This document shows positions 6,241 through 38,026 of a stretch of 64,000 bases of DNA, piece after piece; within the stretch, counting starts at the first letter, position 1, and each line of letters opens with the position of its first letter. The DNA comes from Nitrospira sp. ND1. Lineage in GTDB: Bacteria; Nitrospirota; Nitrospiria; Nitrospirales; Nitrospiraceae. The notes beneath the pieces are model-generated. The model did not search any database, was not told where the DNA came from, and worked only from the letters and a program-made list of their open reading frames with translations. The position numbers were made by a program, and so were the translations under genes. Location of the stretch: positions 1,573,089-1,637,088 of the forward strand of contig NZ_FWEX01000006.1 of NCBI RefSeq assembly GCF_900170025.1, read 5' to 3'.

Positions 6241-6519
6241 ATGAACAAGCGCATCACTGTATTGGCCCTCTTGGCCGCCTTGAGCGCGCCCGCCTGGGCC
6301 GCCACGCAAACGGTTACCCTGTCGGTGCTCGGCATGAAATGCGCGACCTGCTCGATTACGCTGAAGAAAGCGCTGAACAAGGTCGAAGGCGTCGAGAACA
6401 TCGAGGTCAACTTGGAGAAGAAGGAAGCCCTGGTCACCTTCGATGACGCCAAGACCACGGTCGAGGCGCTGCTGGACGCGACCAAGAACGCGGGCTACCC
6501 TTCTACCGTTCATCCCTAA
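6241..6519 (+). CDS. merP: Periplasmic mercury-binding protein MerP
   Basis: The 92-residue product begins with a signal peptide (MNKRITVLALLAALSAPAWA) and then one heavy-metal-associated domain. Its metal site reads GMKCATCS; the usual MerP site is GMTCxxC, so Lys replaces Thr. It binds Hg(II) in the periplasm and passes it to MerT. It starts 12 bases after merT, with AAGGAA upstream. Confidence 0.95.
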   Translation: MNKRITVLALLAALSAPAWAATQTVTLSVLGMKCATCSITLKKALNKVEGVENIEVNLEKKEALVTFDDAKTTVEALLDATKNAGYPSTVHP

Positions 6520-6527
6520 CAGGTGCA

Positions 6528-6773
6528 ATGGACGCGAAAACCAATAGTCACGAGACGCCATCATGGTTGGGCCGAACGCTCATGACGGTCGGCATCAGCG
6601 GCGCCGCGTTTGCCGCACTCTGCTGCGTGGCGCCGTTTATGGTCGCCGGTCTGGTCACCGCGCTTGGCCTTGGGTTCATTCTCGATGATTCCATATTGAT
6701 CGGTCTTCTTATTGTGTTCATCGGCGTGGCCGCGCTGGGCTACTACTTCGTGCGGCGCCAGACGTGCGTGTGA
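6528..6773 (+). CDS. merF: Mercury transporter MerF
   Basis: This small inner-membrane protein (81 residues) has two transmembrane helices. The CC pair lies in the first helix (AALCCVAPFMVAGL) and a further cysteine lies near the C-terminus (RRQTCV). MerF offers a second route for Hg(II) entry to the cytoplasm beside MerT. It sits between merP and merA with gaps of 8 and 42 bases. Confidence 0.9.
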   Translation: MDAKTNSHETPSWLGRTLMTVGISGAAFAALCCVAPFMVAGLVTALGLGFILDDSILIGLLIVFIGVAALGYYFVRRQTCV

Positions 6774-6815: not shown

Positions 6816-8249
6816 ATGGCGAAGACATTTGACCTGGTAATTCTCGGATCCGGCTCGACGGCGTTTGCGGCGGCGCTTCGCGCGGCAGAACGCGGAAAAA
6901 CGGCAGCCATGACCGAGGTGCGAACGCTCGGTGGCACGTGTGTCAATCGTGGCTGCTTGCCCTCAAAGAACCTCATCGAAGCCGCAAAAACCCTCTACGA
7001 GTCGAAGCATCCGCGCTACCCAGGGCTCTCTCCTGCCTCGATGGGCCTGGACTTCCGTGCTCTGATCGAGCAGAAGGATGCCGTGATTGAAGACTACCGG
7101 GGAAAGAAGTATGAGAGCATTATCTCCAATTCTGAAAGCATCCGCGTTTTTGAAGGAGCAGCTCGCTTCAGTGGCCAGAACGAGGTGACAGTGAACGGGC
7201 AGGTGCTCTCAGCGCCTCGGTTCCTTGTCGCGACGGGAAGCGCGCCCACCGTGCCAGAGGTTCCAGGGCTTCGTGACACGCCGTATCTCACCAGCGACCT
7301 GCTCACCAGTCACGAAGACATCGAGATCACAGAGCTTCCGGCGTCGCTCATCATACTCGGTGGCGGTTACATCGCGCTTGAGCTGGGCCAGATGTTTTCG
7401 CGCTTCGGCACCCGCGTCACGATTCTGGCACGCGGAGAGCGAATTCTTTCGGCCTACGAGCCGGAGATTGCACAATCAGTGGCAGACGTATTTCGTGAGG
7501 AGGGCATTGCCATCCAGACGAACACCACGGTGAGCCGGGTGCAGGGCGATGAACGCCAAGTCGTCGTCACGCTCCAGGTGGACGGGCGGCAGAAGGAACT
7601 GAAAGCGGCGAAGCTCCTTGTGGCCACGGGGCGCACACCGAATACAGAACACCTGGGGCTTGACCTTCCAGGAGTCGATCTGGATGAACGTGGTTTCGTG
7701 AAGGTCAATGAGGAGCTTCGCACCTCTGCCGAGCACGTGTATGCCGCCGGAGATGTCATTGGTTCCAACACAGGAAGCCAGATGGCGACTCCTGTGGGGG
7801 CGCAGGACGGTGGGATTGCCGCCGAGAATGCGCTCAACGGCAAAGGGGGCCATAAGGTAAACCACGCCGTGATTCCGCGAGCGATTTTTACCGACCCGCA
7901 GGTGGGCGTCGTCGGACTGTCGGACGAGGAGGCCAATGCGCGCGGGTACGCGTGCGATTGTCGGGTTATTCCTATGTCTCTCGTTCCCAGAGCTGGGGCG
8001 GTCCGGGAGACCAGAGGGGTTCTGAAGATGGTGGCGGACCGGACAACGAAGAAGGTGCTGGGGGTGTCAATGCACGGAATGAACGCGGCAGAGGTGATTC
8101 ATGAGGCGGCAATGGGGCTTCATTTTGGTGCGAGTATCGACGACTTCGCCCACATGCTGCACGTCTATCCAACCATGTCCGAGGCGCTTAAAATCGCCGC
8201 GTTGTCGTACACAAAAGACGTGTCGAAAATGAGCTGCTGTGCAGACTAG
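6816..8249 (+). CDS. merA: Mercuric reductase MerA, short form
   Basis: This FAD-dependent pyridine nucleotide-disulphide oxidoreductase reduces Hg(II) to volatile Hg(0) with NADPH. It shows the FAD-binding [15 protein letters not shown], the redox-active disulphide [13 protein letters not shown] (about 42-54), the NADPH-binding [11 protein letters not shown], and the C-terminal SCCAD cysteine pair that hands Hg to the active site. At 477 residues it lacks the N-terminal MerP-like domain of longer MerAs. The gene has an AGGAGG site and closes the mer operon. Confidence 0.96.
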
Positions 8250-28369: not shown

Positions 28370-28429
28370 CGCATGCCAAAAAGGCAGGAGAGATCCTCCG
28401 TTACCGCGCGGAGAAACCGTACTATGTCA

Positions 28430-28612
28430 GCTCGGATAGGTCTCCTGGCTCATAGGTTCAGAAGGTCGAACCTTCAACGCTACCCCCAGCCTTCCCCAAC
28501 AAGTTTGTCGAGTGGCTAAAACGGGGGAGCTTCCCACTTACAGTGGCGGGACCGCGCCGGTTTTTCACCGGACTTCCCTGTTACGCCCTAGCGGGCATCC
28601 GAGAGATTACTC
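28430..28612 (-). ncRNA. Cobalamin riboswitch controlling the corrin operon
   Basis: The minus strand carries, in order, ACAGGGAAGTCCGGTGAAAA, CGCGGTCCCGCCACTGTAAG and GAGCCAGGAGACCTATCC, which are the diagnostic cobalamin riboswitch boxes. It precedes the cbiX fusion and the downstream genes. High adenosylcobalamin should favour the terminator at 28333-28369. Confidence 0.95.
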
Positions 28613-28626
28613 ATATCAGCCAAGAT

Positions 28627-31755: not shown

Positions 31756-32332
31756 TCATGGTCATCAGGACGGGGGCTTCCCCTATTGCGGCCTCGATGT
31801 CGCTCCTTTCGTTGTCGTGACCTGCCCGGGCAAATTGGGTCCAGGGTGAATGTTAGACTGGACCAGTGAGATGCGAGCTCTTTTTAGGCTAAGCGAAATC
31901 ATCCGTTGTATTCCGCCAGAGGACAACTGAGCTTGCCTATGAATTGACCAGATTTTTTCGGGAGTATCTACTCGCGACGTGAATTTCGACTGAACCTCAG
32001 GCCCGCAGGGGCCCACCGTCTTGCAGAAACAGAACGGCCTTGGCCGCTGATCGTTCGACAACGGGCGACACGTGAGGAATGTCATTCCGGCCGGATAGGG
32101 CCCACGCACTGCAACAACGCATAATGGGCGCCGCCCGTCATCGACGGCTTCCTGGGCACTGTCGCCCACGGCAAACGCTACTGAAAATGTGAAAACGGAT
32201 CGTTGGAACTGACGCGTTTCTTGAAGGCCGGTAGTCGGTCGTTGGCAGCATATGTGCCGCCGGGTGAGTGTCTCAGTTCGGCCAACACCGGTCGGTGGCT
32301 CTTGTTTCCCAAAGCGGTCGTTCGGCTCGAAA
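31756..32332. other. Intergenic region, 577 bases, no convincing gene
   Basis: Only short, non-convincing frames occur on both strands, with no recognisable motif. It separates the PLP enzyme from the integrase stub and looks like decayed accessory DNA. Confidence 0.5.
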
Positions 32333-32715
32333 CTACGTCATCAAGATATCTGCCGGACTGCGCACTCCCGCCAGCGAATTATTCATTAAGTGAGTGTAGA
32401 TCATTGTAGTCTTGACGTCTTTGTGTCCCATCAACTGCTGAACCACGCGAATGTTGTGACCGGCCTCCAGCAGGTGAGTCGTAAAAGCATGCCTAAAGGT
32501 ATGGCAACCGACTGGCTTGCCAATGTTGGCACGTCGTACCGCTTCCTTGACCGTTCGTTGCAGCGTCTTCTCATGGATGTGGAATCGCACTGTTCGCCCT
32601 GTATAGGGATCGCGGCAATGCGATGTCGATGGAAAGATAAACTGCCAAGCCCAAAGATAACCTGCCTTGGGATATTTGCCCGCAAGAGCAAGCGGTCGTG
32701 GCGCCTCACCCAGTC
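32333..32715 (-). pseudogene. Integron integrase (IntI), C-terminal stub
   Basis: Reading the minus strand, the product covers about the last 120 residues of an IntI-type tyrosine recombinase. It has LALAGKYPKAGYLWAWQFIF with the Trp-rich patch, then IHEKTLQRTVKEAV, and the catalytic CHTFRHAFTTHLLEAGH, QLMGHKDVKTTMIYTH (Tyr nucleophile) and the integron-type ending GVRSPADIL. The catalytic core box is intact but about 200 N-terminal residues are absent. Homology stops about where the adjacent gene cassette begins (near 32716-32720), so the gene was cut at a cassette boundary. It cannot be active. Confidence 0.88.
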
Positions 32716-32757
32716 CCCTGTTATACTGCTTTCAGTTCAATTCGCACGGAGAACAAC

Positions 32758-33045
32758 ATGAGCACAAATGTAATAGTCACTTTTAAATCGAAGCCAGAAA
32801 AATTAGCGGAGTTTGTAAACCTGCTGAGCCAAGCAAAAAATGATCTCCCTAAAGTCGCTGGCTGCAAGGTCTTTCGAGTATTCAATGATGTCAACGATCC
32901 TTGTACTTTTACGCTGGTCGAGACCTGGGAATCTGAAACCGATCATAAAAAAAATATCGAAAGCATGGTGGCATCGGGTTTTTGGAGCCACCTTGCTACA
33001 CATCTAGCTTGCGATCCAACCAGCGGTTACTACAAAGAGCTCTAA
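32758..33045 (+). CDS. Antibiotic-biosynthesis monooxygenase (ABM)-domain protein, cassette gene
   Basis: This 95-residue ferredoxin-like-fold protein begins MSTNVIVTFKSKPEKLAEF and contains GCKVFRVFNDVNDPCTFTLV and ETWESETDHKKNIES, typical of small cofactor-free ABM oxygenases or related YgiN-type quinol enzymes. The start at 32758 follows a CGGAGAA site. Codon use is more A/T-rich than in the neighbours. It lies between a GTTATAC core at 32720 and an attC-like palindrome that overlaps its stop codon, so it is read as a mobile integron cassette. Substrate unknown. Confidence 0.85.
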   Translation: MSTNVIVTFKSKPEKLAEFVNLLSQAKNDLPKVAGCKVFRVFNDVNDPCTFTLVETWESETDHKKNIESMVASGFWSHLATHLACDPTSGYYKEL

Positions 33046-33120
33046 GGCATTGCAATAGCCTACCATGGTGTTCAAGAGGGTCGCGCCAAAAGCGGCGCGT
33101 CCCTCAACTTTACCTTAAAC
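33040..33120 (+). other. attC-like recombination site of the gene cassette
   Basis: An 81-bp imperfect palindrome begins at the stop codon of the cassette gene. Its outer boxes are CTCTAAG (33040-33046) and CTTAAAC (33114-33120), resembling the integron core RYYYAAC/GTTRRRY with mismatches. The inner stem gaggg-t-cgcgcc / ggcgcg-t-ccctc (33076-33105) has one T-T mismatch and a six-base loop. Position, size and orientation fit a 59-base element; the degenerate core makes this probable, not certain. Confidence 0.6.
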
Positions 33121-33645
33121 GTCCGCTTTTCGAATCCTGCTACTTCCGCTTTGGGTCGGAAGCAGCCATTCAGAACAGCGAGCAAACCTCAATCCAGCGC
33201 CCAACCTGACCCGATTCGGGGAGTCAATCAAGACTCGCACGACACTCTTCGCCTTGGGCAGTGAGGGCGGCTGGTTTGCAGCATTTTGAGTGGCTGCGTT
33301 GGAGCAGAATCGGTGGCCGGTTTGAGCAGAATACGCAATCAGAACGCAGATACTCATTCGATCCCCGTTCCACATGGATAGAAAGAGCACAATCCTAAGA
33401 AGGAAGAGAGTATCCCTTCAGAGGGCCCAGTGAGTGAAACGAGCACAGATACATAGACTTATGGACTAGTGCGGGGATTGTCCAAGCTACCAACAGCTTG
33501 AACAACCCCCGGGTGATGCACTCTTAATCAGGGAGCACCCTGTGTCATGTAGTGACTTGAGTGAAACGCCATAATCAGAATGGATAACTATGCCGCAGCA
33601 AACTTAAGTAGACCAAGAGACAATCCCCAAAACCAGGTACCGTAA

Positions 33646-33742: not shown

Positions 33743-34238
33743 AATTTTACAACCCTGGCAGGGAGACTGCATTAATATATATATAAAACAATGGGTTCGA
33801 TAAGTACTGTTTGAAGGAATCCAGTCCCCGCAACCAACCTTCTCTCCTCTCTTTCAACCACATACAGCAGTTTCAGTCCAGACATCGGCACTCGCACGAG
33901 CAGCCATGGACTGCTCCCCTAGAGTGAGACGCAACGGATTGGCGCACTTAGCACCAGACGGATGGTGAAGAAACGCGCGGGGGAATTTGCAGTACCTTTC
34001 GGCAGGTGGCAGTGGAGCGGCCCACGCCGTACGACGCTCGCAGGGAACTCGACGTCAGTCTAAAGGGACTTTGAGCGCTGACATCAGCCAGGAATCATGT
34101 TGAACCAGCAGGAAGGGGTGCGAGGTTTACCTGGAATGGCTTGCCCGCTTACCAGCAAGGACTGTCCCGATATGCCTCCAACGGCTTCAGTGTGTGCCCG
34201 AATGTGATCCAAATAGAAGTAGCTTTGTTTCGGTCGTA

Positions 34239-35132
34239 CTAGCGCAAGTAGGTCTTTGCCAGGTCCCAATAGAGGTTATATCGGAACGGTGCTCGCTGTA
34301 TCAGTCTCATAAGTCGCTGCCTCGCGCTACTCAGATGCCCTTCTATGCAATCCATATATGCCAATTCGCGTTCAACCTGCAGAAATCTCTTGCGTATGAT
34401 GGCCAAATCCGGTGCTTGGGGACGATTCTCGTATAAAGCGGGCAGTAGTACACCAAACATCTTCCCATACTCCTCCAGGAAGAGTCGCTTGTTGGACGAA
34501 ACGCTTCCGCCTCGCCAACGATACTTCGCTAACGGCTCATTGATGTATCCAAATTCCCATCCCTTCAGTGACACCATAATCCAATGCAAATAATCTTCTG
34601 TTGCCATAAATTGCTCATCAAACCCACCAACCTCTTCGATACACTCCCGTCGTTCAATGACCGATGGAACCTGGATGTGACAGCGTCGCAGAAGGTCTTG
34701 CAGACAATAGCCTGAGGGAACGGGCCTAGCGGTTTCCACATTAAAGCGCGCACGGATGACCTTCTCCTGTTCATCAATAACGGTTACATCGCTGTGCACA
34801 AGGCCGCATTGGGGATGGGCATCCAAGAACGCGATTTGACATTCGAGCTTCTGCGAATACCACATATCATCGGCGTCCAGATACGCGATAAATTCGCCGG
34901 TCGATACGCTCAGGCCGCGGTTTCTAGCGTTGGATACACCAGCATTGGCTTGATAAATACATCGTATTTTTCTGCCGTAGGACTCAAGAACGTCTGCCGT
35001 CTGATCGGTTGACCCATCGTCAATCACAACCACTTCGTAGTCCCGATAACCCTGGTTCAGGACGCTGTCGATGGCAGCAGAGACCCACTGCATAGAATTA
35101 TAGGCGGGGATGATGACGGATACACGTGGCAT
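34239..35132 (-). CDS. Family 2 glycosyltransferase
   Basis: The 297-residue cytoplasmic product has a GT-A nucleotide-sugar fold: VSVIIPAYNSMQWVSAAIDS at the N-terminus, VVVIDDGSTDQTADVL, NAGVSNARNRGL and the metal-binding AYLDADDMW. An acceptor-side ATEDYLHW (about residue 180) supplies the likely catalytic acid. It probably adds a sugar to a surface glycan. No polysaccharide cluster surrounds it; the only related neighbour is the DegT-type aminotransferase upstream, so the two may be an orphan remnant of a glycan locus. Confidence 0.9.
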   Translation of the reverse strand: MPRVSVIIPAYNSMQWVSAAIDSVLNQGYRDYEVVVIDDGSTDQTADVLESYGRKIRCIYQANAGVSNARNRGLSVSTGEFIAYLDADDMWYSQKLECQIAFLDAHPQCGLVHSDVTVIDEQEKVIRARFNVETARPVPSGYCLQDLLRRCHIQVPSVIERRECIEEVGGFDEQFMATEDYLHWIMVSLKGWEFGYINEPLAKYRWRGGSVSSNKRLFLEEYGKMFGVLLPALYENRPQAPDLAIIRKRFLQVERELAYMDCIEGHLSSARQRLMRLIQRAPFRYNLYWDLAKTYLR

Positions 35133-35463
35133 GCGGGCGTTCCCTGAACAATGCTCTGCAACGCACGATGCGCAGATCAGGGAAGAACTACTCTGATCCC
35201 CGCGAACGTTGCAATTGTCCCCTGGAGTGCTTTGTCACAAGAATAACTGCCTTGTGCTCACTGCCCTCAACATGTCCGGGAATGGCCTGCGAATACGGCG
35301 CACGATCCTCTCGGCTGACGGCCTCTTTGGGTCACACAGCTGCTTATGCGCCGACACATCTTTTATCGCAAATGTGACCTTCAGCAATAACCACGATTAC
35401 CTACCAGTGCCTTTGAAGAACGCAATTATTCCGTGGATACAGTGATCACATCGGACGCTGTAT
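35133..35463. other. Gap between aminotransferase and glycosyltransferase, with a hairpin
   Basis: 331 bases without a gene. The leader side holds an inverted repeat ttccctga...tcagggaa (35140-35184) with an inner tctgc/gcaga pairing, directly before the glycosyltransferase start. It could be a terminator of readthrough or a structured leader. Nothing else stands out. Confidence 0.45.
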
Positions 35464-36576
35464 TCACATGTACTGTTCATTAAATTTTTGCAAACTTAAT
35501 AAAATCGCATCAATGTCGCTATCAGAAAGGTTTGGGTGAAGTGGAAGACTAAGTATTTCATCGTTAAGCTGCTCACAAATGGGAAGCCTGTAAGATGATT
35601 TATAAATAGGATTCAGATGCAATGGATGGAATCGAACAGTTGTATAGATACCGCGGGAATAGAGGTATTTAGCCAATTGATCGCGCTTTCCTTTGGCAAC
35701 CCGAATGGAGTAAGTGAAATAGGAATGCTGTTCATCTGAAGCAGGGTCTTGAGGTCTTATCAGCCAGTCGAAATCAGCTAATTGAGCTTGATATATATTC
35801 CAAATTTTCTTACGGATCGTTTGAAATTTATCTATCTTGCGTAGCTGCGCCAGTCCGATTGAAGCCGCAATGTCATTGGGAAGAAGTTTAGGAAAAACAT
35901 CTACGATGTCATATTCCCACCAGCGCTCTTTCATTGCCGCAGCCTCAAATCCTGCGCGTCCAATACCGCAATACCGCAACTGTCGGGCCCGAGTCATTAA
36001 TTCGGAATCTCTGGTTGTAATTCCTCCTCCCTCACCTGTTGTTATATTTTTGACAGGATCAAAACTATAGACGCCTATTGTTCCAATAGAGCCGCAATAT
36101 TTATTGCCTAGTTTGGAATCTACGGCTTGAGCCGCATCTTCTATCACTGGTTGTCCAAACGATAACACTGGCTCCATACGGACCGGTTTGCCTGCATAAT
36201 GTACAACCATAATAGCCCTGGTCTTTGAGGAAATATGCGGGGCAATTGTGTCAGCAGTCACGTTTTGAGTATTCACGTCTACATCGCAAAATACGGGAAT
36301 ACCTCCAGCGAGGATGATAGCGTGGGCGCATGCGACCCATGTAAAAGAGGGCAGTATGACTTCCGATCCAGGGGATAGGTTTAATAGTTTTACAGCCATG
36401 TATAAACTATTGGAACCGTTGTCCAGAAACACGAAATCCTTGAGCCCCAACCTGTGAGCGAAGAGAGATTCAAATGATCTTGTTTTCAGACCGATTCCGA
36501 GCCATTGCTTTTCAAAGCTGGTGCGTATCTCGTCAATTTCCTCTTGTCCTACGCATGAACCGAATACTGAGATCAT
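35464..36576 (-). CDS. DegT/DnrJ/EryC1-family sugar aminotransferase
   Basis: This PLP enzyme of the nucleotide-sugar aminotransferase family has about 370 residues. Motifs are FLDNGSNSLYMAV, EVILPSFTWVACAHAI, VIEDAAQAVDSKLG and the PLP lysine in YSFDPVKNITTGEGGGI. The start at 36576 is preferred because AGGGG lies 7 bases upstream; an ATG at 36600 has no site. It would transaminate a keto-sugar for glycan building. Base composition is clearly more A/T-rich than in the surroundings, a sign of transfer. Confidence 0.9.
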   Translation of the reverse strand: MISVFGSCVGQEEIDEIRTSFEKQWLGIGLKTRSFESLFAHRLGLKDFVFLDNGSNSLYMAVKLLNLSPGSEVILPSFTWVACAHAIILAGGIPVFCDVDVNTQNVTADTIAPHISSKTRAIMVVHYAGKPVRMEPVLSFGQPVIEDAAQAVDSKLGNKYCGSIGTIGVYSFDPVKNITTGEGGGITTRDSELMTRARQLRYCGIGRAGFEAAAMKERWWEYDIVDVFPKLLPNDIAASIGLAQLRKIDKFQTIRKKIWNIYQAQLADFDWLIRPQDPASDEQHSYFTYSIRVAKGKRDQLAKYLYSRGIYTTVRFHPLHLNPIYKSSYRLPICEQLNDEILSLPLHPNLSDSDIDAILLSLQKFNEQYM

Positions 36577-37252
36577 AGTAAGGCCCCTATTCAAGGACAT
36601 ACTGAGGATCGGATGAGCCGCGGCGGCTGGAAATTACAGTGTCAGTCGGTAATAACGTGACCCCGCCGCACAATTCTCGCCTTCACGGCATCAATCATGT
36701 CGCGAAGTGCTATGGCTAGATCACCGTGCCCCTATTCAGTCTCGTCCGCCGCGATTTGCATTGCTATCGAGCACAAACCGTCGTTTATTTCGGCGATGTG
36801 CGACTTCAGCAAAGCTCTCCCTTGCCCCTCGTTTGCCCTATCAAAACCGTCACCACATGTGACGCATCATAGCCGAACCAGTTCATTACTTCATGGCCCA
36901 TGTGATGACGGACTTGTGCGATGATGCGGTCGCACATGGTTACGGTTGAGCGTGACCGAGCGCGCAGCATTTGCCGAATGAAGGGCGCCCTATTACCCTG
37001 ATGAAACCACCCAAGCTTGCACGGCAAAGAAGGCCGGGAGTGTTGAAGATTGAACAGGCAAGAGAGCCACGCTGGTCGTGGCCACCCAGCACTGGTGGCT
37101 GTTGACCAACGCCACGCATTCGGTCTGCTAAATGTGCGCTACGCCTCGTAACCCTATCTTGAGGATGTGATGTATCGGCCGACCGAATGGTCGGCCTGGT
37201 TATTTGTCCGCCTCGTCTGGGAACGTTAGAGAAGATGAGATACTCGGCCCCC
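36577..37252. other. Gene-free region, 676 bases
   Basis: Short frames here lack ribosome sites and recognisable motifs. A perfect hairpin ggccgacc-gaat-ggtcggcc (37177-37196) lies 56 bases behind the transglycosylase stop. The rest is likely decayed DNA. Confidence 0.5.
37177..37196. terminator. Perfect 8-bp hairpin downstream of the transglycosylase gene
   Basis: ggccgacc-gaat-ggtcggcc is a strong stem with a 4-base loop. No T-run follows on the minus strand, so it may protect the transcript end more than terminate it. Confidence 0.35.
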
Positions 37253-38026
37253 CTATTTCCTGACCGCAGGTGGTGAGTTTCGCACATCAGTAGAGACAGG
37301 CAGTGGCTCAAGTTGCAGCGGCTTGTGATACATAGCGAGCAACACGGCCTTCCCGGGGCTCGCCTGGTAGTCACCACGGAAGCTCTTGTAATAGATCATC
37401 ACCTTCCTGACATAGTCGCGAGTTTCCGGATAGGGCGGAATTGCGCGATACCGCTCCACGCGCCGTTCACCTGCATTATACGCAGCGACCGCCAACCGCA
37501 CGTTCCCGTTAAATCGATCCAGTAAGTACCGCAGGTGCCGCGCGCCGCCTCGAATGTTGTCGTCGGTGTCATAGAGATTGAGCACCCCGTGCCTGATGGC
37601 GGTTTCGGGTATCAGCTGCATCAGTCCAACCGCCCCGGATCGTGAAATGACGGTGGGATTAAAGTCCGACTCCGCCTTGATCACCGCCAGCAGTAAGGCC
37701 GGATGAAGTTGAAACTGGAAGGCGTAGCGCTTGACGGCTTCCTCCACTTCCTCCGCCGAGGCGCGATGCGACAGGCGGCGCACCTGCGATTCCGCCGAGC
37801 GAAACCGTTGGTCGGTCGGAACATTCGTCATTTCGAACACCCCGTTCGGCCCCACATAGCCATAAATCTCGCTGTCTGCAGAGGCGGGCTCCCCGGCCAC
37901 CAGCACCCCCGCAAGCGCCAGAGGAAGCGCCCACGTGGCAGTCACACGCCCGCCATCGTCACTCTGGCCGCCAAGGTTATGGCTCACTACTCGCAACTCC
38001 TGCCGGACAGCTTTTTCGTGATCCAT
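37253..38026 (-). CDS. Lytic transglycosylase (SLT domain), exported
   Basis: The start at 38026 (MDHEKAVRQE) has GAGGAGGAAGAG before it. A hydrophobic export segment lies at about residues 34-50 (WALPLALAGVLVAGEPASA). A short IYGYVGPNGVFEMTNVPTD domain of the DUF4124-like type follows. The SLT domain has the catalytic Glu in AVIKAESDFNP, then SRSGAVGLMQLIPETA and LAVAAYNAGERRVERY. It cleaves peptidoglycan glycan strands by an intramolecular mechanism. 257 residues; stands alone. Confidence 0.92.
   Translation of the reverse strand: MDHEKAVRQELRVVSHNLGGQSDDGGRVTATWALPLALAGVLVAGEPASADSEIYGYVGPNGVFEMTNVPTDQRFRSAESQVRRLSHRASAEEVEEAVKRYAFQFQLHPALLLAVIKAESDFNPTVISRSGAVGLMQLIPETAIRHGVLNLYDTDDNIRGGARHLRYLLDRFNGNVRLAVAAYNAGERRVERYRAIPPYPETRDYVRKVMIYYKSFRGDYQASPGKAVLLAMYHKPLQLEPLPVSTDVRNSPPAVRK

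Follow-up and report, generated by a model that had tools for sequence, protein, structure and literature searches.

We describe an integron relic in Nitrospira sp. ND1 in which a one-gene cassette lies flush against a truncated integron integrase gene, intI. The relic is located in the window, the whole 64,000-nt stretch of DNA that was analysed, and consists of the C-terminal part of intI, a cassette for a protein of the antibiotic biosynthesis monooxygenase (ABM) family and an attC site with changed cores, all of it within a tRNA island (Table 1). The edge of the intI stub is placed to within 12 nt, and the left core of the cassette falls inside that interval. We infer that the integron integrase (IntI) itself made the join. 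Exchange at a site inside intI, by either of two routes, explains the flush join best, and we regard this explanation as an even call.

Table 1 Features of the integron relic and its surroundings in the window
Feature	Position	Strand	Evidence
Segment of 389 bp to the left of the stub, an 86% copy of G000:C6:1572389-1572778	31866-32254	+	
intI stub, ~129 C-terminal residues of an integron integrase	32333-32722	-	TIGR02249; IntI4 structure (PDB 2a3v); 31 IntI rows
Left core (GTTATAC) of the ABM cassette, differing from GTTRRRY at one base	32720-32726	+	sequence; G037 copy
ABM-domain gene, 95 aa, cassette cargo	32758-33045	+	PF03992; G037 and L049 copies
attC relic: R' GCCTACC 33058-33064, hairpin 33076-33105, R'' CTTAAAC 33114-33120	33058-33120	+	alignment to G028:C20, G037 and L049; fold
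Stretch right of attC, parts recurring in genomes of the genus (G003, G005, G014 and G019); dispersed repeat, marks rearrangement	33142-33337	+	
tRNA-Met(CAU) 3' end, 17/19 nt; right end of the island, chromosome resumes to its right	33818-33836	+	

An integrase stub whose edge contains the cassette core

The minus-strand frame 32333-32731 aligns to positions 189-314 of the TIGR02249 profile (E 5e-52), and a TIGR02249 search of the whole 4.45-Mb genome aligns the stub at positions 186-314 (E 3e-51). Because it is a fragment, the stub scores 175-177 bits, below the TIGR02249 cut-off of 265, and does not qualify as an intact intI. The best solved structure for it is IntI4 (PDB 2a3v, E 4.5e-32), and the extra region between the catalytic patches that is specific to IntI is kept (KYP region, 31/31 IntI rows, as well as the TIGR02249 and IntI4 alignments). 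Together with the attC-ended cassette, these matches bear out the integron remnant that a sequence-only reading of the locus had proposed. The same reading took the catalytic boxes to be intact, which holds for box II alone: everything before TIGR02249 position 186 is gone, including box I, the first arginine box, and an arginine invariant in all 31 IntI rows is a glycine in the stub.

No N-terminal half of intI was found by the TIGR02249 search of the 4.45-Mb genome. The remaining matches are weaker (E 1.8e-22 and up), and those covering the part missing from the stub come from frames 319-460 aa long, which we read as other recombinases. The closest intact intI genes are 54-59% identical to the stub. 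Near a contig end in G015 (L162:2750-2788), a genome with no IntI match at E 1e-30, 39 bp match the end of the stub at 87%.

The edge of the stub was placed column by column against 31 IntI proteins of related genomes, two rows of which (L074 and L144) are the same gene. The final conserved match is a glycine at 32714-32716 (26/31 rows); the next strongly conserved column, an aspartate at 32726-32728 (30/31 rows), is lost, and the three codons between them are variable. Homology had been said to stop at about 32716, just at GTTATAC; the core is indeed inside the edge interval, and the edge itself is fixed only to 32716-32728. Alignment of the stub to IntI proteins, proposed earlier as a check and run on the 31 rows, shows homology ending at the core, with the box I part absent. 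The claim that a cassette abuts a truncated intI is supported.

The cassette proper starts at TT 32721. Its copy in G037, a genome of the same family and another genus, likewise begins at a core of the GTTRRRY type (GTTAGGC), and similarity between the two vanishes left of the core; GTTATAC is therefore the true left end of the cassette. On the 5' side, there is no room for attI between the stub and the cassette core, and no recognisable attI or leader; the 3' side of the stub was scanned with R1, the attC model described below, only. Among 5000 dinucleotide-shuffled versions of 32660-32760, 5.6% had a core, defined by an exact GTT and no more than one mismatch elsewhere, within 6 nt of the edge. 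An exact G|TT crossover with intI on its left has to be read against these two figures, an edge known to 12 nt and a nearby-core chance of 5.6%.

The ABM cassette and its attC site

The ABM gene matches PF03992 (E 2.6e-10), with its start codon (ATG, 32758-32760) 38 nt past the core and its stop codon at 33043-33045. The G037 unit (L153:8432-8805) encodes an ABM protein of 80% amino acid identity to that of the window, and has its core 54 nt ahead of the ATG and the 3' attC cores GCTTAAC and GTTAGGT; similarity to the window ends beyond the attC as well. This copy is a lone cassette, with glutamate-synthase-like genes on one side and a PilZ-like gene on the other (frames read by eye); there is no intI in the genome at E 1e-25 and no IntI match in the 17 kb around the cassette. 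The gammaproteobacterial MAG contig L049 holds the last third of the ABM gene (85% over residues 61-94), followed by an attC of the form GCCTAAC ... GTTATAT and then another reading frame. Because the G037 and L049 copies end in attC sites, the ABM unit is a true gene cassette, and the one-gene ABM cassette of the sequence-only reading stands. At L049:5222 the ABM gene lacks its first 60 residues, which are replaced by unrelated sequence, and the attC and the following frame are kept.

The cassette occurs in 1 of 29 genomes of the genus and 2 of 395 genomes of the phylum sample, the window's own being counted in both. Phages, E. coli genomes and viral contigs gave no match to it, and Rhizobium plasmids gave two ABM matches of 40-43% identity. 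Among five ABM loci in genome_contigs, L049 alone shares the 3' end and the attC; the other four are 38-45% identical, with no attC seen by eye in the 150 nt examined.

An attC-like palindrome of 81 bp overlapping the stop codon had been reported at the end of the cassette. An attC is present there, with a strong hairpin at 33076-33105; it spans 33058-33120, begins 12 nt after the ABM stop codon and leaves that codon outside. Its cores depart from the consensus by one wrong base per conserved AAC/GTT triplet (R' GCCTACC against RYYYAAC, R'' CTTAAAC against GTTRRRY). A 54-bp sequence in G028:C20, from the same genus, matches window 33064-33117 at 87% and belongs to a full attC (GTCCAAC ... GTTAGAG) that is flanked by two genes, one oxidoreductase-like and one small and SnoaL-like (by eye). 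Across L161:4407-6723 of this contig, single genes (VOC-like, oxidoreductase-like and SnoaL-like by eye) alternate with two attC sites, the second of which is 1.7 kb off and scores 24.5 bits with R1. There is no IntI match in the 8.6 kb of G028:C20 examined, and this part of the contig is a cassette array that lacks an integrase there and has attC of the window's type.

When the four attC sites are aligned, 31 of 32 stem cells are paired and two of the eight pairs are changed on both sides; the covariation score is reached by 14 of 500 shuffles, a figure that comes from four sequences only, which are few. The window attC is an imperfect hairpin in which structure is kept more than sequence, and its fold gives z -3.1 against shuffles (-0.8 for L049 and -1.7 for G037, both without clear excess). 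Rfam gave no match at the window hairpin at E up to 1.

R1 is an attC covariance model made from 18 attCs of related genomes. It gave 63 matches at E up to 10 on 40 loci of relatives and 11 matches at E up to 0.3 on 44 further loci, partly the same genome stretches, and its training sites are among these matches. In the window, R1 made no call at 33058-33120, which says little, because it also misses the related attC of L049, G037 and G028:C20. The attC call that the sequence-only reading had asked for is thus absent with R1, and the cassette reading is upheld instead by the other copies.

The relic lies at the edge of a tRNA-Met island

The integron relic is part of a ~69.6-kb island at tRNA-Met(CAU) and lies 0.7 kb in from the island's right end. 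A 570-aa serine recombinase (PF00239, PF07508), the 3' end of which overlaps the tRNA, lies by the intact gene (G000:C6:1537188-1537264), the 3' end of the tRNA is repeated at the far end, and both flanks are syntenic. The 44-nt 3' half of the tRNA has no other match in G000 with up to 3 mismatches. Left of the intact tRNA, the chromosome is 92-95% identical to G001, G012 and G019, and the match ends at the last base of the tRNA; in G001 and G012, the downstream side has its counterpart in the block that starts right of 33818, and once more from ~37253-37269 on. From 33818 rightwards, the sequence recurs in further genomes of the genus, G025 being 96.5% identical over 33818-37495. The simplest reading is a 69.6-kb island of which window 1-33817 is the distal part, and older nested insertions within it are possible.

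Since the relic is inside the tRNA-Met island, the end-point of a chromosomal integron that the sequence-only reading saw here is not supported. The search for an uninterrupted intI in relatives found none at this site: G025 and G019 share the right flank, and the site holds other DNA or none.

Several further features of this neighbourhood were recorded. An 88-bp block downstream of tRNA-Met (33818-33905), on the chromosomal side of the island site, is matched whole or partly in many genomes of the genus. L066:301-6893 carries a run of long frames (323, 271, 863 and 754 aa), followed at 7390-7779 by an 86% copy of window 31866-32254; the 863- and 754-aa frames have no Pfam match and look recombinase-like by eye. 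The serine recombinase at the opposite island end has, ~5 kb away, cyclase, HORMA and TRIP13 genes (L158:13765-16225; CBASS-type defence, PADLOC E 6e-148, 3e-83 and 4e-133). A cobalamin riboswitch is found on the minus strand of the window at 28418-28617 (Rfam RF00174, 108 bits).

Integron layouts and stub edges among relatives

We counted layouts at the 24 loci of the phylum where intI and attC were both called with E no worse than 0.05; reverse denotes cassettes co-oriented on the 3' side of intI. Twenty loci are reverse and four classical, a count in which some of the loci had also served to train both the model and the orientation rule, two loci share one intI end and one locus has a single attC fitting neither layout. 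In the window's family, 18 of the 19 scored loci are reverse (L034, L035, L036, L038, L040, L041, L043, L072, L101, L108, L114, L115, L130, L134, L139, L140, L142 and L144) and one is classical. G022 has one reverse integron (L036) and one classical (L037). L081, L088, L091 and L094 are classical by attC side and strand; three of them are in the count (L091 as L146), and L088, at E 0.11, was left out. In the tree, the five rows nearest to the stub by path are all of reverse layout, on a long branch and with group support of 32/67, and grouping of the stub with the classical G022 clade is unrejected (AU p 0.23).

We tested 24 stub edges, that of the window and 23 others, each taken as the start of the best protein alignment; some of these are rough, five (L099, L103, L107, L127 and L132) have <250 nt upstream, and further listed stubs, some ending at contig ends, were left out of the set. 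None of the 23 other stubs has a divergent core 6 nt or less from its edge, so the window is the only one of 24; L041, one of the 23, has a co-oriented GTT-type match 3 nt from its edge. One case in 24 is near the chance expectation, because 5.6% of shuffles place a core this near, and the absence of such a core at all 23 indicates that the other stubs arose otherwise.

Profile start positions hinted at a recurrent truncation at codon 186-191, much of which was removed on reading the DNA: homology runs on upstream in L033, L097 has an internal deletion with reference residues 2-22 kept, L038 has only a stop, and L034 is a copy of the L035 C-terminus. L099 (G133), an unrelated stub, starts ~10 nt or less from the same codon and has nine bases, GCAGTATAA, in common with the window edge. 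Its GTATAAT has two mismatches to the core, so it was not counted by the scripted core test; TTGATT lies 17 nt before TATAAT (by eye), and TATAAT may be the -10 box of a promoter. It seems to us quite improbable that intI in this phylum contains, near TIGR02249 codon 186, an internal site for integrase recombination with cassette cores, which would let an integron switch itself off in one step.

Two other loci of the survey have unusual arrangements. L127 (G313:C48) holds three same-strand intI C-terminal stubs at ~1.83 kb spacing (6477-6298, 4647-4468 and 2818-2639), as if a unit holding the intI end were tandemly repeated. On one contig, L106 (G145:C39) has a full intI (323-1783) and, on the same strand, the C-terminal fragment of another, different intI (6381-6731); a candidate attC is present at 7464-7550 (16.9 bits, E 0.28).

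How the join may have formed

In the mechanism that we favour, the one-gene ABM cassette would once have been part of an integron array. The integron integrase would then have carried out an exchange at a non-canonical site inside intI, near TIGR02249 codon 186, joining the leading core of the cassette directly to the C-terminal part of the gene; with the N-terminal domain and box I lost, the reaction would have ended its own activity. By route (i), which we consider the likeliest, a single deletion would have recombined the internal site with the attI/cassette junction, and attI and the 5' half of intI would have left as a circle, which requires a divergent layout. By route (ii), a free cassette would have inserted into intI and the N-terminal side would have been lost later. 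Route (i) is slightly preferred because it needs a single event. Afterwards the attC would have lost one conserved-triplet base per core, probably fixing the cassette.

The sequence-only reading had offered both a cassette entering a secondary site in intI and a recombination that deleted attI and the N-terminus. The first is right in that a cassette is joined to a truncated intI, and it fails as a simple insertion with the N-terminus still adjacent: the frame obtained by joining the flanks across the empty site is not IntI-like, with a mean BLOSUM of -0.85 to -1.32, where 30 of 31 true IntI rows score 2.0 or more (the exception, F_L035 at -1.12, is seemingly out of register). As removal of the cassette does not restore IntI, simple insertion is excluded unless a second deletion followed. 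The second needs the divergent layout, in a family where 18 of 19 scored loci are reverse.

An att-site exchange that cut intI is plausible. It is consistent with a stub that keeps box II in a genome where no N-terminal half was found, with an edge interval that contains the core, with the lone cassette in G037, and with an attC homologous to three other sites and bearing paired changes in its stem. Against it stand the 5.6% chance of a core near the window edge and the 23 other stubs that are not alike, the mostly reverse integrons of the family, in which cassettes are not on the 5' side of intI, and the lack of a close intact intI (best 54-59%) to show the site before the event.

The same chance figure and the same 23 stubs favour ordinary decay, to which we give a substantial minority chance: an illegitimate deletion or rearrangement of intI would have ended by coincidence at the first base of the cassette, with no integrase reaction. 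Such a deletion is a real option because the stretch is visibly rearranged, with repeated segments on both sides of the relic. Published intI pseudogenes are common (PMC2426708), and large intI deletions are reported in Xanthomonas (PMC12444791). What decay would leave to coincidence is that the stub directly meets an undamaged left cassette end, with neither attI nor a leader recognisable in between.

Another possibility, which we find rather unlikely, is an off-target insertion of the attG kind, in which a free ABM circle would have entered a reverse-layout intI, whether still a gene or already a pseudogene, with later loss of the N-terminal side. This account overlaps route (ii), and the two are not mutually exclusive. 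It sits well with the reverse layout of 18 of the 19 scored family loci and, weakly, with that of the five nearest tree rows, and in G037 the same cassette occurs singly at a different site. However, a second deletion starting near the attC would be required, and no IntI N-terminal sequence is seen to the right; the support of the stub with the reverse group is 32/67, and the classical group has AU p 0.23.

Finally, that the unit is no cassette at all, with the hairpin at 33076-33105 a transcription terminator and GTTATAC a chance match, would suit the changed cores of a lone site and the lack of an R1 call and of an Rfam match at E up to 1, but is largely refuted, and to us barely credible: the ABM unit has two copies with a 3' attC, one with a 5' core too, in unrelated neighbourhoods, G028:C20 has an attC of this kind flanked by other single genes, and the stem shows paired changes.

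If the integrase made the join, as we favour, the locus would be the physical scar of an integron switching itself off by its own reaction, and would represent an exit route. If it did not, the locus still shows plainly what becomes of integron pieces: one cassette, its attC altered in the cores, and a stub of the enzyme at an island edge. The same ABM cassette is found alone in another genome of the family, G037.

Comparison with known systems

Degraded integrons (intI pseudogenes, CALIN and SALIN, the IntegronFinder classes) are like the window in having a broken intI and few or single attC sites. Pseudogenes amount to nearly one third of intI genes in PMC2426708, SALIN is a single attC without an integrase (PMC12690207), and the IntegronFinder 2.0 paper lists two CALIN in the phylum Nitrospira, to which this genome belongs. 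Unlike in CALIN and SALIN, the stub in the window is still attached and flush with the cassette, all within a tRNA island. Chromosomal integrons of Xanthomonas with inactivated intI are also alike, with intI damaged by frameshifts, stops or large deletions and identical arrays in such groups (PMC12444791); there the integron is mostly a resident one at ilvD, whereas the window relic is in an island.

Off-target IntI1 exchange at GNT/GTTRRRY-like sites and cassette insertion at attG sites (PMC10127599 and PMC12901181) resemble the window in a cassette or att junction on non-att DNA at a GTT-like triplet. In the window, by contrast, the target would be the integrase gene itself, and the event is deduced from one scar. 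Reverse (Treponema-type) integrons, described in PMC7691350 and PMC3607928, have the commonest layout among the scored relatives of the window, whereas its stub and cassette are divergent, the classical layout or else the product of an insertion. A cassette flush with its own intI and truncating it was not found described in the literature searched, a search mostly outside subscription papers. Relics, lone cassettes and off-target exchange are already known kinds, and what the window holds is an unusually clean join.
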